A stretch of DNA of 64,000 nucleotides, from contig OX485805.1 in NCBI GenBank assembly GCA_950295325.1, positions 35,823,501 to 35,887,500 of the forward strand, in the 5' to 3' direction. Source of the DNA: Polytrichum commune. Taxonomy: Eukaryota > Streptophyta > Polytrichopsida > Polytrichales > Polytrichaceae. The translations under genes and the position numbers were made by a program. Below, piece after piece: positions 7,383-63,390 of the stretch. Positions within the stretch are counted from its first letter, which is position 1, and each line of letters starts with the position of its first letter. The notes beneath the pieces were generated by a model that was not told the DNA's origin, did no database searches, and saw only the letters and a list, made by a program, of their open reading frames with translations.

Positions 7383-10011
7383 AGACGGCATGCATTGTCT
7401 CCTCCACAAGCTCCTTGGGGTGCGGTGGGGGCAACGAGTAGACTTTCCTGAACACCTCGTGTGGTTTAATAGGCAATCGCCCAGTTGGTGAGGACTTGCG
7501 TATCAAGAAATAAAGTTGCACGGCTCCCACTTGCTTCACCCCTCTTGCCTCTTGAATAACAGTGATCCCTTCTGTCTTCGCCGGGATGTAGGTGCTGTGG
7601 TACAGATCGTATTCGAGGTCCATCGTTGATGTGTATAGATGGACAATGGATGTGGACCTCTCTTGCTCTACAATCCATAACCACACATGAGGCTCAAAGA
7701 GGGCAGGCGAGCGATAGCTCTTGAAGGCTTTTAAGAAGGGGTCGTAGAAGGGTGATCCCGCAACGTCTTGTTTCCAAGCTCCGGGAATTGCACGAAAATA
7801 AAAAATGGCGAAAGGGCAACCCCGGGGGTCATCTCTCACAGAGGCTCTTGAAGCATGGGTGTCCCATGTGCCGAACTTCATGCCCTTTGTGACCGTGCAG
7901 AATCTTGCAAACCCTCCGAATTTCGCTTTCTTTTTCCTATCGAGAAAGTTCACGTACAACCCTGCCTCCCTCTCGTCGATAGATCCCTTCTTTTCGTTCC
8001 TCCTGGATCGTTGGGCTAGGAAGGATGATGCCCCTCTTATCAAAGCTCGCATGGAGACGCCATTGATGTGGTAGTCACTCTTCAGCTTCCTCCAATTCTC
8101 CCACACGATCTCACCATCACTATTAATGAGGTTGTGGGTGGGTAGCAATTTGCTAATCTCCCTTACAGCCATGGTCTTCTTCTTTATGTAATCGCACCAT
8201 TCCTTTATATGGTACGTGGATGGCTTCATATGCTTCGGCCGCTTCAGAAAGATTTTGGGATAGGGCAGAGTTCTTCTAGGAGTTTCTAGAAGAATGTGTT
8301 CTGCTGCCCTATACAGCTCCGAGTCCATCAATCCTTGGAGGGGACGAAAGAACTCTCGCAGGATTGGTGGTACCTTAATCTTTGAATCGCTCTTGTACGT
8401 GTTTTCTGTATCTGGATTCACAAGGTCCCCGTTGTTGTGGGCATCGAAGAGTCGCAACCATATTGCCCACGTCTCCTCTGTTGCAGTGATGAGCTTGAGT
8501 TCACCCTTTAATTCATGCACTGTCTTCATGCCACTTGTCTTCATGTCTATACTCGAGAACTTTGTCAAGATGGCATTGCTGAATGTCTGCAAGAGGCATG
8601 AATTGCAAGAAATCAGTACATCGAAATTAGCAGACATTAAATTCAAAGAATTGAAGCAGTGGGAGGAGAATGGCCAGGTTTACGGACGTGCGTCCGTAAA
8701 TATATATGAGTGACATACCTGCCATTTGGGGTTCTTGACGACTGCATTGTCTCTTTCTTTTGGGGAACATTCGTGCTCCACCCACAAGGTCCTCCCAGCC
8801 ACGATGTTAGCTGCCCATGAAGCCTCGAACTGCCTCACTTTATTCCCTTGGTTCATGAAAGCAGAAATTGCAATTAGTTGGTTCGAGTCCTTGGAATGCA
8901 CGACGAATGCCTTCCAATATCGTATCGTTTCTTTCAATGGGCTTTTCCACTCGTCATCTTCAAGGAGAGCTTTTGCAGCCATCATACTATGTTGGCCGTC
9001 GACTATGTAGAACTCTCCATTCTTGAGAATGGGCCAATTTTTTTCGTTCACTTCAACGATAGGATCCTTAGGTGTGACGCAAATCGTCTGCCTGTCAAAT
9101 TTGGGGTTGTTCATGATGTTGTTCATTTGCCACCATACCCCGCTCTCTTCTTTCGCTCTGGTATTCATACTTTCGGTGCCCTTGTGGCATTTGTAGACGT
9201 CTACGTCGAAAGTGAAATACCTGCCAAGCGGCCAGCAACCCTTTGTCTTCTCATCGAACTCTTGGAATATCTTTGTGGAGAGTTCGGCGTCAGGACGTTG
9301 ACCTTTTTTAAGGAGAGGAGCGACAGTGAGTGTTGAGCTGACATCCGGGCCCTCTGTTAGCCCTGATGACTCCATCTGCGAGTGAGAGCGTTTACTCGTC
9401 TGTCTGCTCCCCCTTGATGCACCACTCTGCGAGGGCCTTGAGGATTCCGGCACAGGTTTAAGGACACGCTTGGGCCGTTCAGGAACGACTTGTTTCTTTT
9501 TCTCCTTCCCCTTTCTGGCCTCTAGCAAGGCCCCATTCACTCTTGTAACATTGTTCAAGAGTCGTCCAAGCCGCTTACCCGTCCAAGGTGCATTGCATGC
9601 ATAGTCTTGGAACTCCGTCTGGAGATTGAAGCAAGCCGCATCGGGACTACCATTTTCACACTCATTTTTGTTAAAGGGATGGTAAGATTCGTGCAAAATG
9701 AATGTGACTCAATCTTCTTTCTTCTCAAGGTCAATTACTACATAATCCCCTTGGGCCATTGCACACTCTACTGTCCACGATTTAAGTTTTAGCCACTTCT
9801 CCGCATCATCTATGTCCGTCTTAATTTGGTAGGCAAATCTAAGCACAAATATCTCTTTTTCGTCTTTCTCTACCAGTACTGTCCAATTATCTACAATGTC
9901 ATCTTGTGGCTTGTAGTGGTCGTTGGGGCTGATGTCTTTGATAGCTTCTGGCAGCGGAGGAATGAGAGCCTCTGCGAACATCTCAATTGCGGGTCTCTTT
10001 TTAGATGCCAT
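7383..10011 (-). pseudogene. ParB/DGQH-motif X gene, copy 1 (truncated)
   Basis: Two exons of the X gene described at 52297-56703. Exon 1 is 10011-8719; the ATG sits directly after an acceptor ending in TTTTTGCAG. Exon 2 starts at 8586 and is cut at 7382 by the LTR-A junction, so about 115 bp of exon 2 and all of exon 3 are missing. Intron 8587-8718 has donor CAG/GTATGT and acceptor TCTTGCAG, both phase 0, and holds one palindrome. A TGA at 9709-9711 interrupts exon 1 in frame after about 100 codons, exactly as in copy 2. The DGQH motif is at residues 338-341 (about 8989-9000). The first 20 codons of the open frame seen at 8646-8587 are intron, not protein. Confidence 0.75.
8680..8702. repeat. 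X palindrome inside an intron
   Basis: Half-site TTTACGGACG plus its reverse complement with one central mismatch (GTGC core). It lies wholly inside intron 8587-8718 of the ParB/DGQH-motif gene. Confidence 0.85.
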
Positions 10012-10835
10012 CTGCAAAAATAAGATAGACAACAAGTTAGTATTGTGGTCAATGGATAAAGATACTAATATACGAACGCGCGTTCGTAAAGATTGCGTAT
10101 TCTGTCATCTAGGTATTATATATTCAAATGAAAACATCCAGTTGTAGTGAATACGCATAGCGCGTACACTACATACTCAAATATATGAAGAGGTTACGGA
10201 CGCGCGTCCGTAACTCTGCACATATAAGATAGAAAAGAATTTGCTTACTTATATATGCATAGGTTACGGACGCGCGTCCGTAAACTTTCTAAAATATTTT
10301 ATATGACATTGTGTATATAATATCTCTAGAAGTTACGGACGCGCGTCCGTAACCTCTACACATATATGATAGAAAGGGATTTGGTCTAATAGAAAGGGAT
10401 GTAGTTTCTTAGAAAGGGATCTGCTTTCTTAGAAAAGCATTTGCTTTCTTATATTTGCTTTCCCTAGTTTACGGACGCGCGTTCGTAAACTTTTTAATAT
10501 ATTAAGAGGTGAATTTTCTTTCTAGAAGTTACGGACGCGCGTCCGTAACCTCTTCACATATATTATATGATGGATTCTCACTTTGGTTTGCCTAGTTTAC
10601 GGACGCGCGTCCGTAAACTTTGCAAATATTTTATGCTGGAGAAGATCATCCTACTTAAATCTCTGGAAGTTACGAACGCGCGTCCGTAACCTCTGCACAC
10701 ATTGTGTGAGTGTCTTGTTTCTCACTCGCACAAATGTCCCTAAAATTTATGGACGCGCGTCTGTAAACTTTAAGGAATTTCTTATTATTCTAAATTTAAA
10801 TATTTGGGGTGATTCCGTATTTTGCGGAGGCTTAC
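10012..10835 (-). other. Probable 5'-UTR intron of the ParB/DGQH-motif gene, copy 1
   Basis: The acceptor TTTTTGCAG lies immediately before the start codon at 10011, and a consensus donor AAG/GTAAGC lies at 10836/10835 on the minus strand. Between them is no coding frame but nine copies of the palindrome. The donor choice is inference; the acceptor is convincing. Confidence 0.5.
10071..10767. repeat. Cluster of nine X palindromes
   Basis: Palindromes start at about 10071, 10193, 10264, 10332, 10467, 10528, 10595, 10669 and 10746, spaced 60-135 bp. The core is nearly always ACGGACGCGCGTCCGT. The first copy is a fully compensated variant (TACGAACGC plus reverse complement). Outer arms alternate between GTTTAC and GTTAC, usually with matching changes on the other side. 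The last copy is degenerate. The sequence between copies is AT-rich and contains a run of GAAAGGGAT-type short repeats at 10370-10440. Confidence 0.92.
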
Positions 10836-11499
10836 CTTGTCTTCCAATATGGTTTTGATCAGCAAATGCGAATGCAATATGGCTCTGCACTGCAATACCA
10901 GACTCTGCAATCAAAAGTGCCAAAGGAATTAAGAAAGTATTGAAATTGGAATCTCACTTGCTCTCAGTGTTGTTGTAGCTCATATGTTTTCAAGCAAACC
11001 TTAAGCCCTAAACCACAACAACGCAATCATACAAAATGCAATTGCAATGTTATAGAAATTCTTACCTTTGTAGAATGTTTGCTCCTAAACCACACCTCTT
11101 CCTCGTGCTGCAGGTAGGACCAACTGCAAATTTACAATATAATTCAGGTTACAAACCTCTAGTAATTCAATGTACACATGCATGATTCAATGAAACTGTT
11201 GTTGCATACTCTTTCAATGCTCTCTAAGGAAATCATCTATGGAAGAACAACATTTAGAAGTACTCCAATACAGTCTACAACAAGTTGCTCATAAATCAGA
11301 TTGAAACATTTTGATATGTATGCAAAAAAAACAATGAACTACAAATTGAAGCTACTCATTTTGAATTGTCAAAAACACATGCTTCAAGATGAAAGGGGGG
11401 GAAAACTACTCCAACCCTAAAACCTTGCAACAACTGAAAGTACTCCTAGAGCATCCTAATGGGCAGCAGCATGCAAGAAACTTACTCACGCTCTGAGGC

Positions 11500-11945
11500 G
11501 CCTCCGCAATTGACCAGCAAGAATGGGTTTTGCAACAAGAATGAGAAGAGCAGCAAGAATGGGAGGAGCAATAATGGGAAGGAAGAGCATCAAGAGAAGG
11601 AAGAGAAGGAAGAGAAGAGCAGCAAGAGCATGAAGAGCAGTAAGAGAAGTAGGAGGTAAGAGAACTAAGTCTGTGAGGTAAGAGAACTAATAGAACTAAG
11701 TGTGTGAGGCAAGAGAACTAAGAGAACTAAGTGTGTGAGGTAAGAGAACTAAGAGAAGAGCAGCAAGAGCACGAAGAGCAATGTGTGGAAGAGAAGCAAG
11801 ATAGTAGCAATGTGTGGAAGAGAAGCAAGATAGTAGCAATGTGTGAAGAGAAGCAAGATAGTAGCAAGAGAAGAGCAACAAGAGCACGAAGAGCAACAAG
11901 AGCACGAAACAAAAACACGAAGAGGAGGGCGAAGAGGAGCTGGCT
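11500..11945 (+). repeat. Purine-rich low-complexity block
   Basis: Imperfect short repeats of the type GAAGAGCAGCAAGAGCA and GTGTGAGGTAAGAGAACTAA. Charged or leucine-rich open frames on both strands are translations of this repeat and not genes. Confidence 0.75.
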
Positions 11946-13266
11946 AGTATGAAACCCTAAAACAAAAGAGGGCCTCCAGGTGTCCTGACCCCAAACGTCA
12001 CATCAACCCCGCGCCCAAACGCCACCTTAAATCCTTACGTGGCATAACCCTACTGGTACAACAAGTGGTATAGACTCTCATCTTTCTCAATAAACTAGTC
12101 TATTTGTGTGATTTATACTTAGTTCGTTGATGTTATTATCATATGTCATAATAACATCTTATGTTTATGCTAAGGCAAGTTAAAAGTCACACTAAATCCA
12201 TCTCTAAATGGGTGCAATCACGGTAAAGTGGACAACTCCTGATCCATGCCTAGTGTTAAGTGAAAGTGATTCAATTTTATGTACTAACTTTGAATTTTGT
12301 GAAGAAATAAACCATAGACATTTTTAAAACATCTTGATCTACAAAGCCAAGCAATTTATGATGACAAAAAGAATTCCAAGAAAAGTCTACCTATTTTAGA
12401 AGACAGTGCAAGTGGCGTGCAAGTAGGTGATATTGAATAAGTGACTGTCTAAAATTTGTTTAAAATATGATAAAATTACATTAAATTGATGGTTTTTTAC
12501 AAAGTTTTGTGGTGATGCCCTCAAGTAGATAATGATTTCAAGGAATATAAAAAAAATTCTAACTCCAAATTGGTTAAGGTCATGAAATCTACATCCAAAA
12601 CCAGACTCAACCATTTGTTTTTGAGCATCACTTTTGATGCTAAGTATTGAAGATCTCAACTTGATATTCTACATTTGTGTATTTAACACAACAATAGAGG
12701 TCATCATAAAAAAAGTCCAATTTAAATAACTCTTTGCTACTACTTTTAGGCCTTTGACCAAAAAAATTATGGTTTTAGTATAGCAAAGCACTATTTTGGT
12801 CCACTTTACCATGCTTGCACCCAAATATAAAAAGAGACATCTCATTTGTAGCTTTGGCAAATAGGACCAACATTATTCGTTTGAGTGGTATGTGGTTTGA
12901 CTCCAAGAACGGATACCAAAAACACTTGCAAACCAAAAAATATTGAATTTCAATGCTCAAAGTATGATAACCATGTAGGTTCAATAGTCAACATAATTGC
13001 AGGGACCTATATGACCATAAGCGTAAGCGGGCTTTAAATTACTAGTACACTAAATATTGTAAGTAGTATCGCTTAATATTTAGTTGTTTGGAATGCTATA
13101 ACTATTCATTGTATATTATGTCATTGTCAACAATTAAAACCCTTCAATAATAATAAAAAGAAAGCATTTTGTAACTCCAAACAATGAGAGAAACTAAATA
13201 CCATTTGTACTGTAGCATGTATGGAGGGGACTATATATTTCTTGTTGATTAACTTCTGTATAAGAT

Positions 13267-13512
13267 TTGTTTCTTCTCAAAGGTGGGATTCAAATGCAAT
13301 TGGGACAATATACCAATTGGCCACAAATTCTCATGAAACTTTGCCATGTCATACTTGTGACTCCCTCAATTATCGCAATAAGTTGTGAAAGGGGATTTTC
13401 AAACCTAAATTATGCTATCAAGAGCCACTTGCAAACTTCATTGAAGTTGGACACTTTGGATGCTTTGATGCGAGTATCATTATCCATGATATTTAAATTT
13501 AAGCATAGTTGA
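13267..13512 (+). pseudogene. hAT transposase C-terminal remnant
   Basis: An 81-codon frame contains the hAT dimerisation-domain pattern, including SCERGFSNLNYAIKSHLQ followed by a LDTLDALMRVSL stretch. This is the C-terminal end of plant hAT transposases and their domesticated relatives. The DDE part and zinc finger are absent nearby, so this is a relic. Its frame opens with poor flanking sequence and no clear start. Confidence 0.75.
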
Positions 13513-13982
13513 AACGCAATTAACAAAACCGAAACATCGAGATATGGGTTGAATTCATATGTTTATAATATCTTAAACAACATTACGGATTAATTCTGTA
13601 TCTCCACACATACTAGGTGCTTGTTTTAAAACAAAACGAATGGGTATGTGTTGAATTTGCATCCCTCTTGCACATTACACAACCTTCGGGATTCATCCAA
13701 TCTTTCCACACCGAGGCCTGAGCTTGTATTATCGCTTATAAGTAGTAGCAAACTTGTTTATACTGGAGTTTTTGTTTCAGTGGTAAGTTGTGTTAAGTAC
13801 TCAATTATAGAATACCAATATATGATCTTAAAAACCTTTAATCAAAAGTAAAGGTTTAAAGCAAATGGTAAAATATGGCTTACAACATAAATCCATCTAT
13901 GTGATGTAATGTTTGGACAATTTAACAACGACATCATATTAATAATGTAGGTGGATTTTTCCATTCATAACATTATTGAAGT

Positions 13983-14116
13983 CCATAACATGATTGTTTT
14001 GTGGGATTGATAGTATTTTATAAAATATTCCTTCATATTCCCACATTCACTCTTAATATGGGAATATAAAGGAATATTTTATAAAATACTATCAATCCCA
14101 CAAAACATTGTTATGG
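13983..14116. repeat. Long hairpin, MITE-like
   Basis: Two nearly complementary arms of about 50 bp run from CCATAACA to TTATGG, around a short loop near 14037-14060. The inner arm GTGGGATTGATAGTATTTTA pairs perfectly with its partner. It could be a small inverted-repeat element or a foldback. I see no clear target duplication. Confidence 0.75.
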
Positions 14117-14413
14117 ATTTGAATAATGCTATCTTAAGCTCACATCAAAGGATAACAAGTATCAGCCAAATCTTGTACTTGCCTCTAAGGGGTAGATTTT
14201 ACCCAGCCAAAGAAAGATTTTAAAAAATGAAAGGTAAGGTTACCCATAAATTTGCTTCACTTTTGAAATGTTTATGATTTTATTTTACAAAATTTAAAGG
14301 TAGTCATATATTAGTTTTGAATTACTTCCACTTAAGCCTTGACATGTATTGGGAGTTATTCAGTTAACCATGCTTGCACTATGTCCTCGTGTTTGTTTAG
14401 GGTTGGGCGATTA

Positions 14414-14439
14414 TAGGGTTTAGGGTTTAGGGTTTAGGG
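14414..14439 (+). repeat. Interstitial telomere-type repeat
   Basis: One TAGGG followed by three TTTAGGG units, the Arabidopsis-type plant telomere motif. It is too short to be a telomere; such short runs are common in plant promoters and spacers. Confidence 0.8.
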
Positions 14440-15645
14440 TACCACGTATGAACTACTGAGAGTATCCCCCTTCTGTCACCTACTTAATATTGCTTGCCTT
14501 AATAATATTTGGATACCCCACCCTCCGCTTCTTTCCATTATGCTTTGTTGGGCTCATAATGGTACTTGGAACAACAATTGCTATTGTTTGAGTCATTATT
14601 GTAGATAATGTACATGGGGTACGAAAATTGGTTTTTTTCTCACGTATAGTACATGAAGAAGGCTAGTATTAGTTTTTTTGAAATAAATGTTGATGTACTG
14701 AAGGGGGCCCTAAGGTTAAGAGAGGTAATTGACAATATTGATTTTAATGCAACCCATAGTATCTATGACAATAGATGTGCTACTTTCATGGCCTCTAGGC
14801 GCTCAAAATTTGTGTACGTATTAATACAATAATATATAGGTGTGTAAAGGTGGGTAAATTAAACGGGTTGGATGGTAGGGTGGTGGCCAATGTAATTACG
14901 ATATTAAATGCAAGATGAGAGGAGATAACATGATATTGGAGTGAATATCATTACATCGTATGCAAAACAATAAAATAGAGGCTAGTTTAATTTTGAATGA
15001 CATGTATTTTTATTCTCCATGTACTATTGTTGTTGTGTGGTTAATGTTTTACACGATACTATAATTTTTTGTCTACTAATTCTACAATGAACTTTCAATA
15101 TTAGGTACTTCAATATTAAAACCCCCCCTCAACAATGTTCAATGTTCATATCTTATTAGCCAATTTTCTTTGTTGTCCACCATAAATATGTAGATGCCTT
15201 TTGCTTTGTCATTATGTGGACTCATGGTCTATGGATGTTGTCTACTATGAATACACATTCCATTGTAAGGCTGGCACACGGAATGTAGTAATGTTAGGTT
15301 TTTATTTATAGGACGTAGTTGGTGGCTAGTATCCTATGTTGGAAAACGGATCCAAGGGAAAACGATGAGTACTTAAGGGGGCATTCCCCCCACCAAGGGA
15401 CTCTTTTTGCATCTCAGATGTGGGTTGCGCTGCTTGGACCCTTGTAGCGTGCTGGATGTTTATTTTGTGCAGGTACAGATCCTATTGCAATGGACCTTTT
15501 ATACCCCAAATACTAAATTCCAAGCTCTAAACCCATTAGTGGAGCCAATTTTTATGTGGATTGCACTTAGTATGATTGATTTTTTTGTTTATGGCAGGTA
15601 TCGTTCCTGGTGCAAGGTTCCTATTATGGCGCCGCAAATCGCGGA

Positions 15646-15961
15646 GGTTTACGGACGCGCGTCCGTAAACCTTAAACATGTTGGTTAATTGGATATCTAT
15701 TGCTTTGAGAATTGTACTTGAGGTATTACTCATGTACACTGAGGTTTACGGACGCACGTCCGTAAACCTTAAACCTGTTGGTTAATTGGATATCTATTGC
15801 TTTGAGAATTGTACTTGAGGTATTACTCATGTACACTGAGGTTTACGGCGCGCATCCGTAAACCTTAAACCTGTTGGTTAATTGGATATCTATTGCTTCG
15901 AGAATTGTACTTTAGGTATTACTCATGTACAATGAGGTTTACGGACGCGCGTCCGTAAGCC
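15646..15961 (+). repeat. 97-bp tandem units, one palindrome each
   Basis: Three tandem units of 97, 97 and 96 bp plus a final palindrome. Each unit starts with a palindrome (15646, 15743, 15840, 15936), followed by a conserved tail (CTTAAACCTGTTGG and on). The second and third palindromes carry single changes or a one-base loss. Confidence 0.9.
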
Positions 15962-16058
15962 TACGTACCTTATGGAACCATAGTTCGGCATTGCACCTGA
16001 ACTGACATCATGACCACTTGCTATGTGAGTCTGCCAACGAGACTGTATTGTCCTGAAA

Positions 16059-16698
16059 ATTTACGGACGCGCGTCCATAAACCTTAAACCTCCGGGCGCA
16101 TTAATCCTTTATTGCCTTGATCGTTTACGGGTTTAGTGGTAATAATGACGTCCAGAGAGATTTACGGACGCGCGTCCGTAAACCTGCAAACCTTTTGTGC
16201 CATAATTTCGACCATGTGCCATGTAGAATATTACATTGAGACTGTACGGTCAATGGAGGTATAAGATCCTTAAATCCTAAACTTACATCACCCTATGTGT
16301 CATAGTATAATATTTTGACATTGATAAAACACAGTAGGAAGCGCGTATGTTAACCTCTTCAAATGCATAGTCGTCAGGCCTGGGTATACGTGTCCGTGGC
16401 ACATGGACATCTTAGTTCCCTAAACCTCTGTGTGTCTTGGACACCACTGACTTTTGACATTGGGATGTTTGCGGACGCGCGTCCGTATACCTATTTTGTA
16501 TAGTTTGCGAAACCATTTGCGCATGTTACTGACCTCTTTGAGCACGAAGAGTTTTACGGGTGCGCGTCCATAAACATGTCATATTTTTGTTGTCTGGACC
16601 TGTCCGCCGACTATGAACAAATAAAGGAATTTGTATACGCGTGTGCTTGCACTAATAATGTTGTTACATGGAGGTATACGAACGCGCGTTCGTATACC
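16059..16698. repeat. Scattered X palindromes upstream of the plus-strand gene
   Basis: Copies at about 16059, 16161, 16468, 16552 and 16673. The last is a 26-bp perfect palindrome with half-site GGTATACGAACGC. It differs from the standard at several positions in both arms at once. Confidence 0.9.
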
Positions 16699-16837
16699 AA
16701 TGTGTCTTTGTTTCCAGGCCATGAAATCCACTATTGTTCACATTGTGTTTCATTGACAATAAGCATTATGACTATCCATGACATTTATTGAATGGGATAT
16801 TTTGACATACTCTTCATTTGGATCACTTGTAGTGGCC

Positions 16838-18179
16838 ATGGATTCCAACGTCGGTGATAGTGCATTTGAGTTCTCTTCGGAATCGTCAAGCTATGGTAGC
16901 GAATTTGAAGGTGTCATGGAACGGGAAACTACAATTGATGTCGCAAATGCAGAGGATGATTTCATACCACCATGTAAGGGTTATTCGCGGGAACAGTGGA
17001 TTGATCTTGATGTTGTCCTAGTCAATGGATGTGGCGTCCCCGTGGCCGATGGTGTTTGTCGGAACTCGAATCCTACGGATTGTATTGATGCAAATCCCCT
17101 TGGGGAGGAAGATGTTGGGGTGTGCATTTTGAACTCCTTGAATCCTTTGGAAGTACCTCCTGGTTGGAGATTCTCTCTTCGTCGATGGCCGTTGCGAAGT
17201 GTTCTTCACGATGGTGTCAACTTGTGGAATCATGCCCGTCGTTTTGAGGAAATACAAAAGGATTTGTTCGCCACAATGCGTCCTAGACAAGGTCGGCGTA
17301 AATATGATTCCGTTCGCGTGCCCCGTGAACCCACGCAACGTCGTCGAGATCTAACATTGGGAGACACATCTATTAGGTCCGTAGCAACAAAGGATTGTTG
17401 TGCAAAGAGGTCTTGCCAACTATTTCCCCGTGACAAAATCAAATCTTTGAGACAAGAGATGTGGCTTGCGGACTTTCGTATGCGATCTGCAAAGAAACTT
17501 GAAGTCCATCGTAACATGCACTTTGATGCCGAAGGTCGTAAGGTTGTGACCTTGGAAAATATAGAGGTATGTTGCACGGCATGGTACATTATACATGCTA
17601 TTTTAAAGGCAGATTTTTATAGGTTCCAGAACTACTCGCTGCAAGGACGGCGTTCTCGGTTCCATGGCAACTCTGGTACAAAGAAGCCTAGGGAGGCAAC
17701 ACTCCAAGCGGCTGCAACACTATCAACCATCATTATGCCATTAGCGGATGCGATGCCACACAAGACACGGACTCTGCCGTCGGGGGAAAAGGTTGTCCAG
17801 ATGGTTTTGCCTACAGGGACAAAATGGAAGAACATACTTATGGATGTTAATGAGGTTGGCGAAAAGGCTGGATGTGGGCCGATTTCGTTGTCAAAATTGA
17901 GTGTGATCAAGAATCAACAATTTGCAGAGTACATTACGAAGAGGCCTGGGGATAAGTTTGCTAGGTGTTCTGCTTGTGAGAAATATAAGGGCCTTCGAGA
18001 TGCACATCCAATAGGGACTGAGTCGCACAATAGACATCAACGAAAATACATTGAGCATGTCAACAACCAGGAGGCACACCGTCAAGACTACTACAAGAAT
18101 CGCGCATTATCGATAATGAGGCCGAATGAGGTGTTGACAATCATTCATGACAAAATGGACCATGCGAAGACTGCGTGCC
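16838..18179 (+). pseudogene. DUF7869-like X gene, copy 1, truncated by LTR-A
   Basis: Starts at ATG 16838, four bases after an acceptor ending in CTTGTAG; the upstream 20 codons of the open frame are leader. It gives 447 codons until LTR-A begins at 18180, so the second exon with the catalytic-fold region is lost. Visible parts: an acidic serine-rich N-terminus; a cysteine cluster (KDCCAKRSC) near residue 188; a basic KIKSLRQEMW helix; and a CSAC motif followed by histidines near residue 385. The same gene on the minus strand at 23864-26953 is about nine-tenths identical by eye. That copy shows what is missing: the exon with DNCAKDNK and GHTHDDID. The frame itself has no lesion before the truncation. 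Confidence 0.7.
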
Positions 18180-46860: not shown

Positions 46861-46879
46861 AGGGCCTTACTCATTTTAT

Positions 46880-51164: not shown

Positions 51165-51202
51165 CGGAGAGTCCAAGTACAAACCCAAAATTGTCAAAGT
51201 TT

Positions 51203-52264: not shown

Positions 52265-52282
52265 ACGGACGCGCGTCCGTAA
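52265..52282. repeat. X palindrome downstream of the ParB/DGQH-motif gene
   Basis: TACGGACGC followed by its reverse complement, 15 bp past the stop of exon 3, between two X genes. Confidence 0.88.
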
Positions 52283-52296
52283 CGTGGGAGGCATGC

Positions 52297-55200
52297 TCAA
52301 AGGTTGATTACCTCTTCAGGGGCGAGGTCCGCGCCAGCAGTGCCTCCCTCACCTGGCCCCGTCATGGGCACAGGATCCGGATGCGCGTCCGCAAAATTGT
52401 CCAGATCTTCGACCACCAACAAAGTGTCTCCAGCCGCTTGCGATCCTTGAGTATCCACGTAAGGCTGATCCTCATCAGTGGAGTCTTGGCTGCCCCGCAT
52501 ATGTACATCTTCATCGCCGATGGGGGCGTGGCCTTCATTGACATCTCTCTCGGCGGCACCCGCCGTGTCACGTGCCGGTATCTCCTCCACTCCTGTTGGA
52601 AGAGAGGGGGGCTCTGGAGTGGCGACAACAATGGGAGAGGGCGGGACAATCAACGTGGGAGCTGGATAAGCATGCTCGGGAATATAAACAGCATGGCTAC
52701 TAGATGGAGGCCGCATGAGAGTGGTGGGCATCGACATGCCCGCCTCGGGAGCTGCATATACAACTTGGGGCCTTGCCTGCAAGCTCTGCATCAAGCTCAT
52801 GAATTGTTGGCTCTGGGCCAAGAACTGCTGATTTTGAGCCATGAGATCAGCGTGCCTTCGAGCAGACTCCAATCTAGCTTGCTCCATCTCAGCTTGGATG
52901 GCGGCCATCTTTTTGGCGTGCTCCTCGTTAGCTTCTCGAAGCCGTTGGTCAAGCTCTTCCTTCATTCGCTTCTCCATCTTCTCGTCCAATTCGGACACTG
53001 ACATCGGCTCTTTCTTCACCTTGCCAGGTTCGGTAGGCAAGGCAGAGATGGCATTGTGGATCCTAATCTCATCCTCGTCTTCATCGGAGAGCTCCAAGAC
53101 CGCGCCTTCAGGGTATTCGTTGTATGGCGTCTTGTTCCTCTTTTGTCGACTCTCACGATATAGAGAGATATCAGGCCTCAATATCAACTCCAGCACATCC
53201 CTCCCCTCCATAGGGGGTAGATCTAAATGTTGAGACCCCCCTCCAGATGAAGCCGTGCATCCGCCTTCTGCCGCAAGGTCCACATCCTTCTCCGCAATAA
53301 CACCTGCAGCACGAGATGGACCCGCAGTTGAAGGAAACCCAACTCGAGAGGTGGGAGTCCCAAAAGATGAGAGAACAGGGGTATGAGGGACCCTTATCGG
53401 AGTGAAGTTAACGCGTGCCTCCTGCGCATCCGTGTCGTCTGTTCCCAGCAGGAACACACTTGGATTAATTGGGTCCCGAACAAGGCCGTGTAAAGGCTCC
53501 TGTGTGGAGGGCTGCGCTTTTGGGGAACTGGGATCCTGGTCCTCTTCAGGGTCTGTCTCCATTCCGGGCATTGCCTCTTCTCTAGAAGCAAGAGGCACCG
53601 CAGGATGGGGTGTAAGGACGTCCATGATGTCCTGTATATCCATTTTGGAGGCAATAACCCTGTGAGTATGGGCGTCATCGTAGTCGGAATCCTCCACAAA
53701 AGAATTCACCTGCAATCCAAGCATCTGCACCAAACAAGAAAATTAGATAGGAACAATTGTGGTGATGACATATAAATGAGGCCAGATGCCAACACATTCT
53801 ACGGACGCGCGTTCGTAAAACCACCACTCAAAAGTTGGACAATTTTACGGACGCACGGTCGTAAAATTCACATGCACCTGATACTGGGTTTTTACGGACG
53901 CGCGTCCGTAAAATAACTATGCAAAGATAGGTGGGTTGAAAGACAAACAACTACTCACCAATGCTGCATACATAAACTTCGTGCCTCCGAAGACGTTGTA
54001 AACTGTCTCACTCATGGCAGTTAAAGCCTTCAAGACTCCTATATAAAAGTCCATCCGGAGCTCGAACGCCGGGTAGACGGCATGCATTGTCTCCTCCACA
54101 AGCTCCTTGGGGTGCGGTGGGGGCAACGAGTAGACTTTCCTGAACACCTCGTGTGGTTTAATAGGCAATCGCCCAGTTGGTGAGGACTTGCGTATCAAGA
54201 AATAAAGTTGCACGGCTCCCACTTGCTTCACCCCTCTTGCCTCTTGAATAACAGTGATCCCTTCTGTCTTCGCCGGGATGTAGGTGCTGTGGTACAGATC
54301 GTATTCGAGGTCCATCGTTGATGTGTATAGATGGACAATGGATGTGGACCTCTCTTGCTCTACAATCCATAACCACACATGAGGCTCAAAGAGGGCAGGC
54401 GAGCGATAGCTCTTGAAGGCTTTTAAGAAGGGGTCGTAGAAGGGTGATCCCGCAACGTCTTGTTTCCAAGCTCCGGGAATTGCACGAAAATAAAAAATGG
54501 CGAAAGGGCAACCCCGGGGGTCATCTCTCACAGAGGCTCTTGAAGCATGGGTGTCCCATGTGCCGAACTTCATGCCCTTTGTGACCGTGCAGAATCTTGC
54601 AAACCCTCCGAATTTCGCTTTCTTTTTCCTATCGAGAAAGTTCACGTACAACCCTGCCTCCCTCTCGTCGATAGATCCCTTCTTTTCGTTCCTCCTGGAT
54701 CGTTGGGCTAGGAAGGATGATGCCCCTCTTATCAAAGCTCGCATGGAGACGCCATTGATGTGGTAGTCACTCTTCAGCTTCCTCCAATTCTCCCACACGA
54801 TCTCACCATCACTATTAATGAGGTTGTGGGTGGGTAGCAATTTGCTAATCTCCCTTACAGCCATGGTCTTCTTCTTTATGTAATCGCACCATTCCTTTAT
54901 ATGGTACGTGGATGGCTTCATATGCTTCGGCCGCTTCAGAAAGATTTTGGGATAGGGCAGAGTTCTTCTAGGAGTTTCTAGAAGAATGTGTTCTGCTGCC
55001 CTATACAGCTCCGAGTCCATCAATCCTTGGAGGGGACGAAAGAACTCTCGCAGGATTGGTGGTACCTTAATCTTTGAATCGCTCTTGTACGTGTTTTCTG
55101 TATCTGGATTCACAAGGTCCCCGTTGTTGTGGGCATCGAAGAGTCGCAACCATATTGCCCACGTCTCCTCTGTTGCAGTGATGAGCTTGAGTTCACCCTT

Positions 55201-56703
55201 TAATTCATGCACTGTCTTCATGCCACTTGTCTTCATGTCTATACTCGAGAACTTTGTCAAGATGGCATTGCTGAATGTCTGCAAGAGGCATGAATTGCAA
55301 GAAATCAGTACATCGAAATTAGCAGACATTAAATTCAAAGAATTGAAGCAGTGGGAGGAGAATGGCCAGGTTTACGGACGTGCGTCCGTAAATATATATG
55401 AGTGACATACCTGCCATTTGGGGTTCTTGACGACTGCATTGTCTCTTTCTTTTGGGGAACATTCGTGCTCCACCCACAAGGTCCTCCCAGCCACGATGTT
55501 AGCTGCCCATGAAGCCTCGAACTGCCTCACTTTATTCCCTTGGTTCATGAAAGCAGAAATTGCAATTAGTTGGTTCGAGTCCTTGGAATGCACGACGAAT
55601 GCCTTCCAATATCGTATCGTTTCTTTCAATGGGCTTTTCCACTCGTCATCTTCAAGGAGAGCTTTTGCAGCCATCATACTATGTTGGCCGTCGACTATGT
55701 AGAACTCTCCATTCTTGAGAATGGGCCAATTTTTTTCGTTCACTTCAACGATAGGATCCTTAGGTGTGACGCAAATCGTCTGCCTGTCAAATTTGGGGTT
55801 GTTCATGATGTTGTTCATTTGCCACCATACCCCGCTCTCTTCTTTCGCTCTGGTATTCATACTTTCGGTGCCCTTGTGGCATTTGTAGACGTCTACGTCG
55901 AAAGTGAAATACCTGCCAAGCGGCCAGCAACCCTTTGTCTTCTCATCGAACTCTTGGAATATCTTTGTGGAGAGTTCGGCGTCAGGACGTTGACCTTTTT
56001 TAAGGAGAGGAGCGACAGTGAGTGTTGAGCTGACATCCGGGCCCTCTGTTAGCCCTGATGACTCCATCTGCGAGTGAGAGCGTTTACTCGTCTGTCTGCT
56101 CCCCCTTGATGCACCACTCTGCGAGGGCCTTGAGGATTCCGGCACAGGTTTAAGGACACGCTTGGGCCGTTCAGGAACGACTTGTTTCTTTTTCTCCTTC
56201 CCCTTTCTGGCCTCTAGCAAGGCCCCATTCACTCTTGTAACATTGTTCAAGAGTCGTCCAAGCCGCTTACCCGTCCAAGGTGCATTGCATGCATAGTCTT
56301 GGAACTCCGTCTGGAGATTGAAGCAAGCCGCATCGGGACTACCATTTTCACACTCATTTTTGTTAAAGGGATGGTAAGATTCGTGCAAAATGAATGTGAC
56401 TCAATCTTCTTTCTTCTCAAGGTCAATTACTACATAATCCCCTTGGGCCATTGCACACTCTACTGTCCACGATTTAAGTTTTAGCCACTTCTCCGCATCA
56501 TCTATGTCCGTCTTAATTTGGTAGGCAAATCTAAGCACAAATATCTCTTTTTCGTCTTTCTCTACCAGTACTGTCCAATTATCTACAATGTCATCTTGTG
56601 GCTTGTAGTGGTCGTTGGGGCTGATGTCTTTGATAGCTTCTGGCAGCGGAGGAATGAGAGCCTCTGCGAACATCTCAATTGCGGGTCTCTTTTTAGATGC
56701 CAT
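52297..56703 (-). CDS. Large three-exon X gene with ParB/DGQH-type motif (one in-frame TGA)
   Basis: Exon 1 56703-55411, exon 2 55278-53959, exon 3 53724-52297; about 1,345 codons. Introns are 132 bp (CAG/GTATGT, CTCTTGCAG) and 234 bp (TTG/GTGAGT, TTGGTGCAG), both phase 0. The start ATG follows an acceptor TTTTTGCAG. Residues 338-350 read DGQHSMMAAKALL, preceded by FYIV. This resembles the DGQH/ParB-sulfiredoxin fold motif (nucleotide binding), an assignment by pattern only. Exon 2 is basic and globular. Exon 3 has an acidic disordered start, a long charged coiled coil (about 52790-53030) and a proline-rich tail. TGA 56401-56403 interrupts exon 1 in frame; upstream and downstream protein look equally coding, so a single W-to-stop change is likely. 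The gene may be dead or the site read through. Confidence 0.62.
52374..52396. repeat. Palindrome remnant inside a coding exon
   Basis: GGATGCGCGTCCGCAAAA in exon 3 is a decayed palindrome. On the coding strand it is translated as part of the NFADAHPDP stretch. Confidence 0.6.
53800..53913. repeat. Three palindromes inside intron 2
   Basis: Copies at 53800-53817, 53841-53868 and 53890-53913, all inside intron 53725-53958. The outer arms differ (CTACG, AATTTTACG, TTTTACG). The second has extended arms matching on both sides but a mismatched centre. Confidence 0.9.
55372..55394. repeat. X palindrome inside intron 1
   Basis: Same sequence and place as 8680-8702: within intron 55279-55410. Confidence 0.85.
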
Positions 56704-57527
56704 CTGCAAAAATAAGATAGACAACAAGTTAGTATTGTGGTCAATGGATAAAGATACTAATATACGAACGCGCGTTCGTAAAGATTGCGTATTCTGTCAT
56801 CTAGGTATTATATATTCAAATGAAAACATCCAGTTGTAGTGAATACGCATAGCGCGTACACTACATACTCAAATATATGAAGAGGTTACGGACGCGCGTC
56901 CGTAACTCTGCACATATAAGATAGAAAAGAATTTGCTTACTTATATATGCATAGGTTACGGACGCGCGTCCGTAAACTTTCTAAAATATTTTATATGACA
57001 TTGTGTATATAATATCTCTAGAAGTTACGGACGCGCGTCCGTAACCTCTACACATATATGATAGAAAGGGATTTGGTCTAATAGAAAGGGATGTAGTTTC
57101 TTAGAAAGGGATCTGCTTTCTTAGAAAAGCATTTGCTTTCTTATATTTGCTTTCCCTAGTTTACGGACGCGCGTTCGTAAACTTTTTAATATATTAAGAG
57201 GTGAATTTTCTTTCTAGAAGTTACGGACGCGCGTCCGTAACCTCTTCACATATATTATATGATGGATTCTCACTTTGGTTTGCCTAGTTTACGGACGCGC
57301 GTCCGTAAACTTTGCAAATATTTTATGCTGGAGAAGATCATCCTACTTAAATCTCTGGAAGTTACGAACGCGCGTCCGTAACCTCTGCACACATTGTGTG
57401 AGTGTCTTGTTTCTCACTCGCACAAATGTCCCTAAAATTTATGGACGCGCGTCTGTAAACTTTAAGGAATTTCTTATTATTCTAAATTTAAATATTTGGG
57501 GTGATTCCGTATTTTGCGGAGGCTTAC
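56704..57527 (-). other. Probable 5'-UTR intron of the ParB/DGQH-motif gene, copy 2
   Basis: Bounded by donor AAG/GTAAGC (57528/57527) and acceptor TTTTTGCAG at the start codon. It contains nine palindromes and no coding frame. Same reading as for copy 1. Confidence 0.5.
56763..57459. repeat. Cluster of nine X palindromes, copy 2
   Basis: The same nine copies as at 10071-10767. Confidence 0.92.
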
Positions 57528-59958
57528 CTTGTCTTCCAATATGGTTTTGATCAGCAAATGCGAATGCAATATGGCTCTGCACTGCAATACCAGACTCTGC
57601 AATCAAAAGTGCCAAAGGAATTAAGAAAGTATTGAAATTGGAATCTCACTTGCTCTCAGTGTTGTTGTAGCTCATATGTTTTCAAGCAAACCTTAAGCCC
57701 TAAACCACAACAACGCAATCATACAAAATGCAATTGCAATGTTATAGAAATTCTTACCTTTGTAGAATGTTTGCTCCTAAACCACACCTCTTCCTCGTGC
57801 TGCAGGTAGGACCAACTGCAAATTTACAATATAATTCAGGTTACAAACCTCTAGTAATTCAATGTACACATGCATGATTCAATGAAACTGTTGTTGCATA
57901 CTCTTTCAATGCTCTCTAAGGAAATCATCTATGGAAGAACAACATTTAGAAGTACTCCAATACAGTCTACAACAAGTTGCTCATAAATCAGATTGAAACA
58001 TTTTGATATGTATGCAAAAAAAACAATGAACTACAAATTGAAGCTACTCATTTTGAATTGTCAAAAACACATGCTTCAAGATGAAAGGGGGGGAAAACTA
58101 CTCCAACCCTAAAACCTTGCAACAACTGAAAGTACTCCTAGAGCATCCTAATGGGCAGCAGCATGCAAGAAACTTACTCACGCTCTGAGGCGCCTCCGCA
58201 ATTGACCAGCAAGAATGGGTTTTGCAACAAGAATGAGAAGAGCAGCAAGAATGGGAGGAGCAATAATGGGAAGGAAGAGCATCAAGAGAAGGAAGAGAAG
58301 GAAGAGAAGAGCAGCAAGAGCATGAAGAGCAGTAAGAGAAGTAGGAGGTAAGAGAACTAAGTCTGTGAGGTAAGAGAACTAATAGAACTAAGTGTGTGAG
58401 GCAAGAGAACTAAGAGAACTAAGTGTGTGAGGTAAGAGAACTAAGAGAAGAGCAGCAAGAGCACGAAGAGCAATGTGTGGAAGAGAAGCAAGATAGTAGC
58501 AATGTGTGGAAGAGAAGCAAGATAGTAGCAATGTGTGAAGAGAAGCAAGATAGTAGCAAGAGAAGAGCAACAAGAGCACGAAGAGCAACAAGAGCACGAA
58601 ACAAAAACACGAAGAGGAGGGCGAAGAGGAGCTGGCTAGTATGAAACCCTAAAACAAAAGAGGGCCTCCAGGTGTCCTGACCCCAAACGTCACATCAACC
58701 CCGCGCCCAAACGCCACCTTAAATCCTTACGTGGCATAACCCTACTGGTACAACAAGTGGTATAGACTCTCATCTTTCTCAATAAACTAGTCTATTTGTG
58801 TGATTTATACTTAGTTCGTTGATGTTATTATCATATGTCATAATAACATCTTATGTTTATGCTAAGGCAAGTTAAAAGTCACACTAAATCCATCTCTAAA
58901 TGGGTGCAATCACGGTAAAGTGGACAACTCCTGATCCATGCCTAGTGTTAAGTGAAAGTGATTCAATTTTATGTACTAACTTTGAATTTTGTGAAGAAAT
59001 AAACCATAGACATTTTTAAAACATCTTGATCTACAAAGCCAAGCAATTTATGATGACAAAAAGAATTCCAAGAAAAGTCTACCTATTTTAGAAGACAGTG
59101 CAAGTGGCGTGCAAGTAGGTGATATTGAATAAGTGACTGTCTAAAATTTGTTTAAAATATGATAAAATTACATTAAATTGATGGTTTTTTACAAAGTTTT
59201 GTGGTGATGCCCTCAAGTAGATAATGATTTCAAGGAATATAAAAAAAATTCTAACTCCAAATTGGTTAAGGTCATGAAATCTACATCCAAAACCAGACTC
59301 AACCATTTGTTTTTGAGCATCACTTTTGATGCTAAGTATTGAAGATCTCAACTTGATATTCTACATTTGTGTATTTAACACAACAATAGAGGTCATCATA
59401 AAAAAAGTCCAATTTAAATAACTCTTTGCTACTACTTTTAGGCCTTTGACCAAAAAAATTATGGTTTTAGTATAGCAAAGCACTATTTTGGTCCACTTTA
59501 CCATGCTTGCACCCAAATATAAAAAGAGACATCTCATTTGTAGCTTTGGCAAATAGGACCAACATTATTCGTTTGAGTGGTATGTGGTTTGACTCCAAGA
59601 ACGGATACCAAAAACACTTGCAAACCAAAAAATATTGAATTTCAATGCTCAAAGTATGATAACCATGTAGGTTCAATAGTCAACATAATTGCAGGGACCT
59701 ATATGACCATAAGCGTAAGCGGGCTTTAAATTACTAGTACACTAAATATTGTAAGTAGTATCGCTTAATATTTAGTTGTTTGGAATGCTATAACTATTCA
59801 TTGTATATTATGTCATTGTCAACAATTAAAACCCTTCAATAATAATAAAAAGAAAGCATTTTGTAACTCCAAACAATGAGAGAAACTAAATACCATTTGT
59901 ACTGTAGCATGTATGGAGGGGACTATATATTTCTTGTTGATTAACTTCTGTATAAGAT

Positions 59959-60204
59959 TTGTTTCTTCTCAAAGGTGGGATTCAAATGCAATTGGGACAA
60001 TATACCAATTGGCCACAAATTCTCATGAAACTTTGCCATGTCATACTTGTGACTCCCTCAATTATCGCAATAAGTTGTGAAAGGGGATTTTCAAACCTAA
60101 ATTATGCTATCAAGAGCCACTTGCAAACTTCATTGAAGTTGGACACTTTGGATGCTTTGATGCGAGTATCATTATCCATGATATTTAAATTTAAGCATAG
60201 TTGA
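59959..60204 (+). pseudogene. hAT transposase C-terminal remnant, copy 2
   Basis: Identical to 13267-13512; contains SCERGFSNLNYAIKSHLQ. Confidence 0.75.
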
Positions 60205-60674
60205 AACGCAATTAACAAAACCGAAACATCGAGATATGGGTTGAATTCATATGTTTATAATATCTTAAACAACATTACGGATTAATTCTGTATCTCCACA
60301 CATACTAGGTGCTTGTTTTAAAACAAAACGAATGGGTATGTGTTGAATTTGCATCCCTCTTGCACATTACACAACCTTCGGGATTCATCCAATCTTTCCA
60401 CACCGAGGCCTGAGCTTGTATTATCGCTTATAAGTAGTAGCAAACTTGTTTATACTGGAGTTTTTGTTTCAGTGGTAAGTTGTGTTAAGTACTCAATTAT
60501 AGAATACCAATATATGATCTTAAAAACCTTTAATCAAAAGTAAAGGTTTAAAGCAAATGGTAAAATATGGCTTACAACATAAATCCATCTATGTGATGTA
60601 ATGTTTGGACAATTTAACAACGACATCATATTAATAATGTAGGTGGATTTTTCCATTCATAACATTATTGAAGT

Positions 60675-60808
60675 CCATAACATGATTGTTTTGTGGGATT
60701 GATAGTATTTTATAAAATATTCCTTCATATTCCCACATTCACTCTTAATATGGGAATATAAAGGAATATTTTATAAAATACTATCAATCCCACAAAACAT
60801 TGTTATGG
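60675..60808. repeat. Long hairpin, copy 2
   Basis: Identical to 13983-14116. Confidence 0.75.
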
Positions 60809-61105
60809 ATTTGAATAATGCTATCTTAAGCTCACATCAAAGGATAACAAGTATCAGCCAAATCTTGTACTTGCCTCTAAGGGGTAGATTTTACCCAGCC
60901 AAAGAAAGATTTTAAAAAATGAAAGGTAAGGTTACCCATAAATTTGCTTCACTTTTGAAATGTTTATGATTTTATTTTACAAAATTTAAAGGTAGTCATA
61001 TATTAGTTTTGAATTACTTCCACTTAAGCCTTGACATGTATTGGGAGTTATTCAGTTAACCATGCTTGCACTATGTCCTCGTGTTTGTTTAGGGTTGGGC
61101 GATTA

Positions 61106-61131
61106 TAGGGTTTAGGGTTTAGGGTTTAGGG
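61106..61131 (+). repeat. Interstitial telomere-type repeat, copy 2
   Basis: TAGGG plus three TTTAGGG units. Confidence 0.8.
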
Positions 61132-62337
61132 TACCACGTATGAACTACTGAGAGTATCCCCCTTCTGTCACCTACTTAATATTGCTTGCCTTAATAATAT
61201 TTGGATACCCCACCCTCCGCTTCTTTCCATTATGCTTTGTTGGGCTCATAATGGTACTTGGAACAACAATTGCTATTGTTTGAGTCATTATTGTAGATAA
61301 TGTACATGGGGTACGAAAATTGGTTTTTTTCTCACGTATAGTACATGAAGAAGGCTAGTATTAGTTTTTTTGAAATAAATGTTGATGTACTGAAGGGGGC
61401 CCTAAGGTTAAGAGAGGTAATTGACAATATTGATTTTAATGCAACCCATAGTATCTATGACAATAGATGTGCTACTTTCATGGCCTCTAGGCGCTCAAAA
61501 TTTGTGTACGTATTAATACAATAATATATAGGTGTGTAAAGGTGGGTAAATTAAACGGGTTGGATGGTAGGGTGGTGGCCAATGTAATTACGATATTAAA
61601 TGCAAGATGAGAGGAGATAACATGATATTGGAGTGAATATCATTACATCGTATGCAAAACAATAAAATAGAGGCTAGTTTAATTTTGAATGACATGTATT
61701 TTTATTCTCCATGTACTATTGTTGTTGTGTGGTTAATGTTTTACACGATACTATAATTTTTTGTCTACTAATTCTACAATGAACTTTCAATATTAGGTAC
61801 TTCAATATTAAAACCCCCCCTCAACAATGTTCAATGTTCATATCTTATTAGCCAATTTTCTTTGTTGTCCACCATAAATATGTAGATGCCTTTTGCTTTG
61901 TCATTATGTGGACTCATGGTCTATGGATGTTGTCTACTATGAATACACATTCCATTGTAAGGCTGGCACACGGAATGTAGTAATGTTAGGTTTTTATTTA
62001 TAGGACGTAGTTGGTGGCTAGTATCCTATGTTGGAAAACGGATCCAAGGGAAAACGATGAGTACTTAAGGGGGCATTCCCCCCACCAAGGGACTCTTTTT
62101 GCATCTCAGATGTGGGTTGCGCTGCTTGGACCCTTGTAGCGTGCTGGATGTTTATTTTGTGCAGGTACAGATCCTATTGCAATGGACCTTTTATACCCCA
62201 AATACTAAATTCCAAGCTCTAAACCCATTAGTGGAGCCAATTTTTATGTGGATTGCACTTAGTATGATTGATTTTTTTGTTTATGGCAGGTATCGTTCCT
62301 GGTGCAAGGTTCCTATTATGGCGCCGCAAATCGCGGA

Positions 62338-62653
62338 GGTTTACGGACGCGCGTCCGTAAACCTTAAACATGTTGGTTAATTGGATATCTATTGCTTTGA
62401 GAATTGTACTTGAGGTATTACTCATGTACACTGAGGTTTACGGACGCACGTCCGTAAACCTTAAACCTGTTGGTTAATTGGATATCTATTGCTTTGAGAA
62501 TTGTACTTGAGGTATTACTCATGTACACTGAGGTTTACGGCGCGCATCCGTAAACCTTAAACCTGTTGGTTAATTGGATATCTATTGCTTCGAGAATTGT
62601 ACTTTAGGTATTACTCATGTACAATGAGGTTTACGGACGCGCGTCCGTAAGCC
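62338..62653 (+). repeat. 97-bp tandem units with palindromes, copy 2
   Basis: Palindromes at 62338, 62435, 62532 and 62628, as in copy 1. Confidence 0.9.
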
Positions 62654-62750
62654 TACGTACCTTATGGAACCATAGTTCGGCATTGCACCTGAACTGACAT
62701 CATGACCACTTGCTATGTGAGTCTGCCAACGAGACTGTATTGTCCTGAAA

Positions 62751-63390
62751 ATTTACGGACGCGCGTCCATAAACCTTAAACCTCCGGGCGCATTAATCCT
62801 TTATTGCCTTGATCGTTTACGGGTTTAGTGGTAATAATGACGTCCAGAGAGATTTACGGACGCGCGTCCGTAAACCTGCAAACCTTTTGTGCCATAATTT
62901 CGACCATGTGCCATGTAGAATATTACATTGAGACTGTACGGTCAATGGAGGTATAAGATCCTTAAATCCTAAACTTACATCACCCTATGTGTCATAGTAT
63001 AATATTTTGACATTGATAAAACACAGTAGGAAGCGCGTATGTTAACCTCTTCAAATGCATAGTCGTCAGGCCTGGGTATACGTGTCCGTGGCACATGGAC
63101 ATCTTAGTTCCCTAAACCTCTGTGTGTCTTGGACACCACTGACTTTTGACATTGGGATGTTTGCGGACGCGCGTCCGTATACCTATTTTGTATAGTTTGC
63201 GAAACCATTTGCGCATGTTACTGACCTCTTTGAGCACGAAGAGTTTTACGGGTGCGCGTCCATAAACATGTCATATTTTTGTTGTCTGGACCTGTCCGCC
63301 GACTATGAACAAATAAAGGAATTTGTATACGCGTGTGCTTGCACTAATAATGTTGTTACATGGAGGTATACGAACGCGCGTTCGTATACC
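62751..63390. repeat. Scattered X palindromes, copy 2
   Basis: Same five copies as 16059-16698, including the fully compensated GGTATACGAACGC palindrome at 63365-63390. Confidence 0.9.

Follow-up and report, generated by a model that had tools for sequence, protein, structure and literature searches.

Clustered palindromic sites are characteristic of the bacterial ParB/parS and Noc systems, in which GERR is the CTP-binding motif of ParB; a helix-turn-helix DNA-binding domain is a further trait of the ParB superfamily. VANDAL elements carry a Mutator-type transposase, and Sola elements a DDD transposase of RNase H fold. As the published accounts of the Arabidopsis VANC/VANDAL system outline it, a short motif is repeated in tandem in non-coding DNA, upstream of genes and in introns, and diversifies together with the anti-silencing VANC protein that the element encodes; the VANC21 motif comprises 9 bases in a single orientation, and a count of the string "palindrom-" over the main text gives 0 (PMC5735166, PMC10398659). 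Binding of the motif by the protein, with induced loss of DNA methylation, is a further hallmark of VANC/VANDAL. In Ectocarpus, Sola1-1_Ec32 is presented as a Sola-1 transposon of 21.5 kb in which a gene combining ParB-like and DNA methyltransferase parts lies opposite the transposase, and ParB-like accessory proteins of algal transposons are proposed to act on the element that carries them by binding it and modifying its DNA, binding sites not being described in the sections on this element (PMC12477816). The Sola superfamily is described as generating a 4-bp target duplication (PMC10741241). Our literature searches gave no match for the exact palindrome described below or for DUF7869, and the present system was absent among the matches listed.

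The palindromes reported here are part of one large DNA transposon and not a free repeat. This transposon is 17-19 kb long and has 28-bp terminal inverted repeats (27/28 identical in 3/3 elements compared), 4-bp target duplications in 5/5 elements having both ends, and two divergent genes, A, with a predicted ParB-like fold, and B, encoding a DUF7869 protein, each found in 8/9 sequences examined. In the window, that is, the whole stretch of 64,000 nucleotides analysed (Table 1), copy 1 has the target duplication TGAA on both sides and reaches 42.7 kb because of nested insertions; copy 2 is broken at 27770, its matching sequence resuming at about 78439, beyond the window, and no inverted ends were found in the internal fragment. 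The element is probably a Sola-type DNA transposon, sharing with that superfamily terminal inverted repeats and the target duplication of 4 bp described for it (PMC10741241). As in the description of Sola1-1_Ec32 (PMC12477816), it is giant and carries a ParB-like gene on the strand opposite a (here probable) transposase gene; the Ectocarpus gene includes a DNA methyltransferase domain, which searches did not confirm in gene A.

From its sequence, gene B is probably the transposase; at E 0.001 its frames matched DUF7869 only in Pfam and no Mutator-type transposase, and one of the 120 homologues listed (P0034) is from the moss Physcomitrium patens. For gene A, the predicted fold of residues about 266-390 resembles the ParB N-domain (best Foldseek E 3.6e-3; no match at E <=0.001, with a pTM of 0.40 for the whole model), and DGQH stands at the place of GERR in an alignment made by eye, GQH being invariant across 27 gene A homologues. 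It further differs from bacterial ParB in residing on a eukaryotic transposon and in the lack of a recognised DNA-binding domain: none was identified in gene A, where residues 389-443 are mostly predicted at low confidence, and a PDB sequence search returned no ParB among its matches. No relatives of gene A were found in viral contigs. By eye, a glycine-rich stretch in exons 2-3 resembles a methyltransferase; Pfam gave no match for exon 2 and none for exon 3 at the curated cut-off, and a sequence search of the PDB yielded only two unrelated dehydrogenases, at E 2.

Table 1. Transposon copies, genes and palindromes located in the window
Feature	Position	Strand	Remarks
Transposon copy 1	35767..64000		First 28.2 kb; other inverted end at 78438, in the right flank
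Copy 1 inverted end, gene A side	35767..35794	+	Begins AACACTATATTCG
Transposon copy 2, gene B end	23229..27770		Inverted end at 23229
Internal transposon fragment	7378..18179		Flanked by a 234-bp direct repeat
Gene A exon 1, predicted ParB-like fold	55372..56724	-	In-frame stop splits exon
Gene A exon 1, duplicate	8680-10032		Same in-frame stop
Gene A exon 2 reading frame	53917..55338	-	Extends into intron 2 at its final residues
Gene A exon 3 reading frame	52297..53733	-	
Gene B of copy 2	23864..27007	-	DUF7869, E 1.1e-39; several reading frames
Gene B exon 1 in internal fragment, truncated	16778..18179	+	
9 clustered sites, upstream of gene A	10069..10767		Duplicate 56761-57459
8 clustered sites, upstream of gene B	15648..16696		Duplicate 62340-63388
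Extra site in the preceding cluster, indel-shifted	15841		
Cluster upstream of copy 2 gene B, 8 sites	27007..27744		
Palindrome, gene A intron 1	8679..8700		Duplicate at 55371
Palindrome, gene B intron	25479..25500		Paired variant GGATG/CATCC
Three palindromes, gene A intron 2	53798..53912		
Palindrome directly 3' of gene A stop codon	52262..52283		
Degenerate palindrome within gene A exon 3	52374..52395		5 mismatches

The preliminary description of this locus reported about 50 near-perfect palindromes, and a search for TTTACGGACGCGCGTCCGTAAA at <=5 mismatches indeed recovers 50 sites in the window, against 0 for the 22-mer in 20 replicates of order-2 Markov sequence; because 54070-64000 is 100% identical to 7378-17308, a 9.9-kb duplicate, 18 of these sites are counted twice and 32 are distinct. 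The variants quoted there are also present, namely TACGAACGC at 10071, GGTATACGAACGC at 16673 and GAGTTACGGATGC at 25477, together with the GTTAC and GTTTAC arms at 10.1-10.8 kb. Perfect palindromes of at least 18 bp in the window number 34, of which 27 belong to the TTTACGGACGCGCGTCCGTAAA family and 7 to the LTRs of a retrotransposon unrelated to it. Exact copies of the 22-mer number 878 across the 408-Mb genome, and the 50 places listed all lie in loci with the gene A/gene B element, on which ground a free-living palindromic repeat or MITE was rejected. A viral or prokaryotic origin of the motif was likewise rejected, no exact 20-mer being present in viral or genome contigs; one palindrome cluster had no phage match, and neither Rfam families at the gathering score nor tRNAs were detected.

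Complete copies of the transposon carry 22-27 sites each, located in introns as well as upstream of both genes, and some sites lie near splice-like sites. In copy TE27.9, 1/23 sites falls within coding sequence. Its outermost sites stand about 2.3 kb from one end and 0.7 kb from the other; if the weak site at 0.7 kb (6 mismatches) is left out, the second distance also becomes 2.3 kb. This placement bears on whether the palindromes bind the gene B product itself, for synapsis or regulation of its own promoter, as might be modelled on the subterminal motifs of other plant transposons. The presence of sites both ahead of gene B and inside its intron would suit such a binder, as would the occurrence of gene B in as many sequences as gene A, but the sites of TE27.9 are not subterminal, the clusters are central, and palindrome type tracks gene A, the only gene for which the comparison was made; we consider this reading improbable.

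Variants had been described as often changed in both arms together, and paired changes did exceed those in shuffled arms both in the window and in a larger set, in tests that overstate independence because the element copies are related. For the 32 distinct sites of the window, which make up 30 different rows and were compared with 500 arm shuffles, 9 cells were altered on both sides against 2.3 in shuffled arms, with 0/500 shuffles reaching 9, and the covariation score was 0.149 against 0.087, again with 0/500 as high; only 4 column pairs had both-side changes, against 1.9 (24/500 as high). One slid control gave 8 paired cells, but 40% of its cells were paired compared with 93.9% at the sites. 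The larger set, 205 copies taken from nine sequences, collapses to 105 distinct combinations of context and word; here paired arm changes numbered 37 against 10.3, and the highest value among 2000 shuffles was 21. Where the flanks of two element copies diverged by >3%, sites differed, over all such pairs pooled, by 6.6% and flanks by 15.6%, the rest of the element, coding included, differing by 9.9%; one subfamily pair runs opposite, with 6.4% at sites and 5.1% in other element sequence. The sites are thus less exceptional against all other element sequence than against flanks. The palindrome nevertheless looks selected, as had been suggested, given that sites diverge less than flanks and that homologous genes carry palindromes altered in both arms. 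Covarying arms could also mean that pairing alone matters, in a hairpin or cruciform of RNA or DNA, and intronic sites and a variable centre, suited to a loop, are in keeping with this. Structure alone would, however, leave each site free to drift to its own sequence, unlike the arm sequence common to the sites within one element, where conservation stops at the palindrome edge; many sites moreover lie upstream of genes, outside demonstrated transcripts, and we regard a purely structural role as quite unlikely.

In gene A homologues, read-through of the same intron encodes other palindromes, changed in both arms and known through translation alone. In a tree of the homologues with their translated introns, palindrome type sorts by gene A protein clade; labels were taken from unambiguous, exact tails only (GAACG and GGGTCG being two of the palindrome types), and the arm types were picked after the tails had been inspected, so that type counts are no clean test. 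A back-translation screen open to any protein was too permissive, yielding 805 possible palindromes against 627 in shuffled proteins, and was set aside. Palindrome type and gene A protein differ in step, which suggests that these tags serve the protein in recognising its own element. What was observed is the transposon with the order of its genes, where the sites lie, how their arms covary and are conserved, and how the types sort by clade; from this we infer, at somewhat better than even confidence, that the palindromes are recognition sites of a two-fold symmetric protein encoded by the element, most likely the ParB-like product of gene A. One subunit would contact each arm, and the sites in introns, together with the clusters that precede the two genes, would let the protein mark the non-coding regions of the element, which may keep the element genes expressed, through anti-silencing or autoregulation, or lead to modification of the element's own DNA. 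A shift in protein specificity would be followed by both arms of every site, so that lineages would come to differ by paired changes. The best reading is a system analogous to VANC/VANDAL, but on a Sola-like transposon, and differing from VANC in its 20-22 bp palindrome, its candidate transposase and its ParB-like protein. There is a low but real chance that it goes further and represents a eukaryotic marking akin to parS/ParB, in which a ParB-fold protein would load at the 22-27 sites and spread or modify DNA, keeping a 17-kb element unsilenced while specificities co-evolve. The element would be a second case in plant transposons, beside Arabidopsis VANC and in a different transposon type, of co-evolving sequence-specific self-recognition. 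The element offers candidate sites by the hundreds and protein clades with differing palindromes, a natural experiment that opens the ParB self-binding proposal (PMC12477816) to a binding assay.

After insertion, single copies would be expected to decay one arm at a time. Among young copies, 83 site comparisons gave 39 one-arm differences and 1 paired difference, which runs against the earlier suggestion that one arm is copied from the other by hairpin repair. Quasi-palindrome correction, an error of replication or repair, is the mechanism by which such copying would occur, and the single paired difference (TE31.3 13549) is what it would produce; in that pair, however, each side shows a CpG transition, a class of change that accounts for 81/170 one-arm changes, and we hold arm copying to be extremely unlikely. 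The CpG share, as under methylation, and the placement of the palindromes, ahead of genes and close to splice-like sites, could also be read as recruitment of a host factor for transcription, splicing or silencing, lineages differing as their hosts differ. This we judge very unlikely given the confinement of the listed exact copies to loci of the element; type sorts with the element's protein, but host lineage could sort alike, and this does not discriminate. The possibility that the variants trace to a few master copies holds in part, as inheritance by position accounts for some of the paired variants. For example, three copies, including two close relatives, have the paired GGATG/CATCC variant in the intron of gene B, while in other copies the change is present in a single arm only.

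The preliminary description's estimate of about 50 palindrome copies agrees with the 50 matches to TTTACGGACGCGCGTCCGTAAA (22-mer) found in the window at up to five mismatches, compared with none in order-2 Markov sequences, though only 32 of these sites are distinct because the segment 54070-64000, which holds 18 of the 50, is 100% identical to 7378-17308. Sequence conservation is limited to the palindrome, with an information content of at least 1.1 bits throughout the 11 arm positions, about 0.5 bits at positions 12-14, and at most 0.3 farther out. A second palindrome of 20-24 bp, GGGCGCTGTCCCGGGACAGCGCCC, has no relation to the TTTACGGACGCGCGTCCGTAAA family and belongs to the LTRs of a group of related retrotransposons.

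The exact 22-mer occurs 878 times in the 407.8-Mb genome (64 contigs, with the window at C3:35823501-35887500), whereas the reversed control is absent. The first 50 of these 878 places group into eight loci on one contig, and we compared 10 kb at three loci, 30 kb at five, and 20 kb to the right of the window. All eight loci contain homologues of the window's gene A (encoding a predicted ParB-like-fold protein), gene B (encoding a DUF7869 protein, a probable transposase), or both. Comparison of copies gives an element length of 17.3-19.1 kb in four of them, whereas the window copy spans 42.7 kb because of nested insertions. The inverted ends are AACACTATATTCGKTAATTGGAGACTTT, and all five copies with both ends are flanked by a 4-bp direct duplication (CACT, TTGT, ATGG, TAAA, and TGAA), with genes A and B directed towards opposite ends. 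In the remaining four of the nine sequences, the end pattern does not match one or both ends within the fetched stretch; the right end of one of these, TE37.1, is visible in a separate comparison of copies. Sola elements are described in PMC10741241 as having 4-bp flanking duplications and lengths that can exceed 15 kb and as being present in Physcomitrella. The present element matches that account and is a candidate Sola member, proof of membership calling for a reference transposase.

Each of four complete elements has 22 to 27 sites at up to six mismatches, and the palindrome clusters preceding gene A and gene B are separated by 4.8 to 7.0 kb in the four elements measured. Coding sequence accounts for 40% of the element copy TE27.9 and holds one of its 23 sites (binomial P 1.4e-4). 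Cluster periods vary among elements (95 and 135 in two and, for one side each, 97 in a third and 66-71 in a fourth); therefore, gain and loss of sites go along with tandem repeats, whereas the intron sites stay in place. A degenerate palindrome of the family at 52374-52395 is part of the reading frame of gene A exon 3.

The preliminary description proposed that the palindrome is either selected or copied by a mechanism making both arms from one, and suggested testing covariation against shuffled arms. Paired changes, in which both arms are altered together, are indeed in excess (37 versus 10.3 expected, in 105 distinct flank-cluster/word combinations from 205 copies), and the 32 window sites score 0.149 for covariation versus 0.087 when shuffled (0 of 500 as high) and at most 0.070 in slid versions, relatedness among copies remaining in the counts of both tests. 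The contrast is weaker for window column pairs altered on both sides (4 versus 1.9; 24 of 500 shuffles as high), and one slid version yields 8 doubly changed cells against 9. Copying error would account for paired changes, but these should then appear in young copies, which show 39 one-armed differences versus 1 paired in 83 site comparisons. Across 185 copies, with duplicates among them retained, CpG transitions account for 81 of 170 one-arm changes versus 5 of the 36 changes that are paired and identical. Single copies thus decay arm by arm, in a manner largely resembling methylated CpG; it is apparently only in lineages staying active that paired changes build up.

Divergence between copies favors the selection half of that proposal. 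Sites and flanks are about equally diverged in four young pairs (1.0% versus 0.7%, 2.8% versus 1.6%, 2.4% versus 2.2%, and 3.9% versus 3.1%) and sites are lower in one (2.3% versus 3.3%), whereas at flank divergence of at least 8% sites are less diverged in 19 of 19 pairs, at roughly 0.27 to 0.58 times the flank value (e.g. 7.6% versus 23.2%). When all pairs whose flanks diverge by more than 3% are pooled, the values are 6.6% for sites, 15.6% for flanks, and 9.9% for all remaining sequence including coding, where choosing sites by consensus likeness somewhat lowers their divergence and the element pairs are not independent.

The palindrome type also follows gene A. Predicted proteins in public databases frequently extend into gene A intron 1: among 83 homologues, 62 extend to the end of the exon, of which 51 continue for at least eight residues. 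An exact palindrome peptide (six arm types, any centre) occurs in 37 of the 62 tails (36 of the 51 long ones) and one within a single mismatch in 45, compared with means of 0.01 and 0.39 in shuffled tails, a count that is only descriptive because the arm types were taken from those very tails. Alternative codons are also compatible with the CGGTCG and CGGGCG peptides; the GGGTCG type stands on firmer ground, since the peptides found for it in all three frames jointly fix TTTGGGTCGATCGACCCAAA. Four of the 37 exact tails are compatible with both GGACG and GAACG, and the centre dinucleotide is variable and often not self-complementary (e.g. LRTFVRK and LRTCVRK). The tree comprises 53 exon-1 sequences, of which 30, labelled by an exact, unambiguous peptide, form three groups, namely GGACG (7), GAACG (4), and GGGTCG with CGGTCG and CGGGCG (14, 2, and 3). 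Of the 23 unlabelled sequences, 8 have tails under eight residues and 15 have longer ones lacking such a peptide. Each group is set apart by a single branch that has support of 100/99 or 100/100 and is found in 100% of bootstrap trees, although the tree carries its own warning of long branches between its halves. The three groups require the minimum possible number of changes, and the sub-types of the third a few extra ones.

One arm sequence per element, varied surroundings, kept symmetry, and set-wise replacement across lineages are what is expected of a sequence-specific symmetric binder, and, judged from sequence, the sites are probably its recognition sites. A pure hairpin, on the other hand, would fail to maintain one arm sequence. 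Gene A, for which co-diversification was compared, is the better candidate for the binder than gene B because the site type follows it and its predicted fold resembles that of binders of palindromic sites. A 21.5-kb Ectocarpus Sola-1 element is reported to encode a ParB-like and DNA methyltransferase protein opposite the transposase, and its authors raise the possibility that proteins of this kind bind the transposon encoding them and modify it (PMC12477816). VANC is reported to bind motifs in non-coding regions and induce methylation loss (PMC5735166, PMC10398659); by analogy, the binder might keep the element's genes active, this direction of effect being a presumed one. Among the matches listed, we found no published account of the palindromic sites, of where they lie, of how they are conserved, or of their co-diversification with the ParB-like gene.

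Placement of sites in elements and positions of neighbouring features in the window
Feature	Position	Detail
Site cluster	upstream of gene B	four complete elements
Site cluster	upstream of gene A	four complete elements
One site	gene B intron	four complete elements
One site	gene A intron 1	four complete elements
Two or three sites	gene A intron 2	four complete elements
Sites	at and just past gene A end	four complete elements
Three retrotransposon copies and solo LTR	20331-21296, 27771-34830, 36902-43953, 44074-51165	copies ~7.1 kb each
Internal tandem repeats in retrotransposons	31361-32061, 40496-41175, 46884-47551	~230 bp, copies ~74-84% alike
Reading frame with NLI-interacting-factor-like phosphatase domain	51203-51922	E 6.2e-15

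The window also contains a 9.9-kb stretch in two copies with 100% identity, one within the region 7149-18413 and the other at 54070-64000, and the fragment at 7383-18179 is bordered by a 234-bp direct repeat (99.6%). The arrangement resembles what would be left by copying part of the adjacent transposon to another site and generating a target duplication of great length; an assembly artefact could also account for it. Two of the retrotransposon copies lie side by side in opposite orientation within the transposon, and a frame fragment at 21106-21600 adjoining the solo LTR resembles the phosphatase frame by eye.
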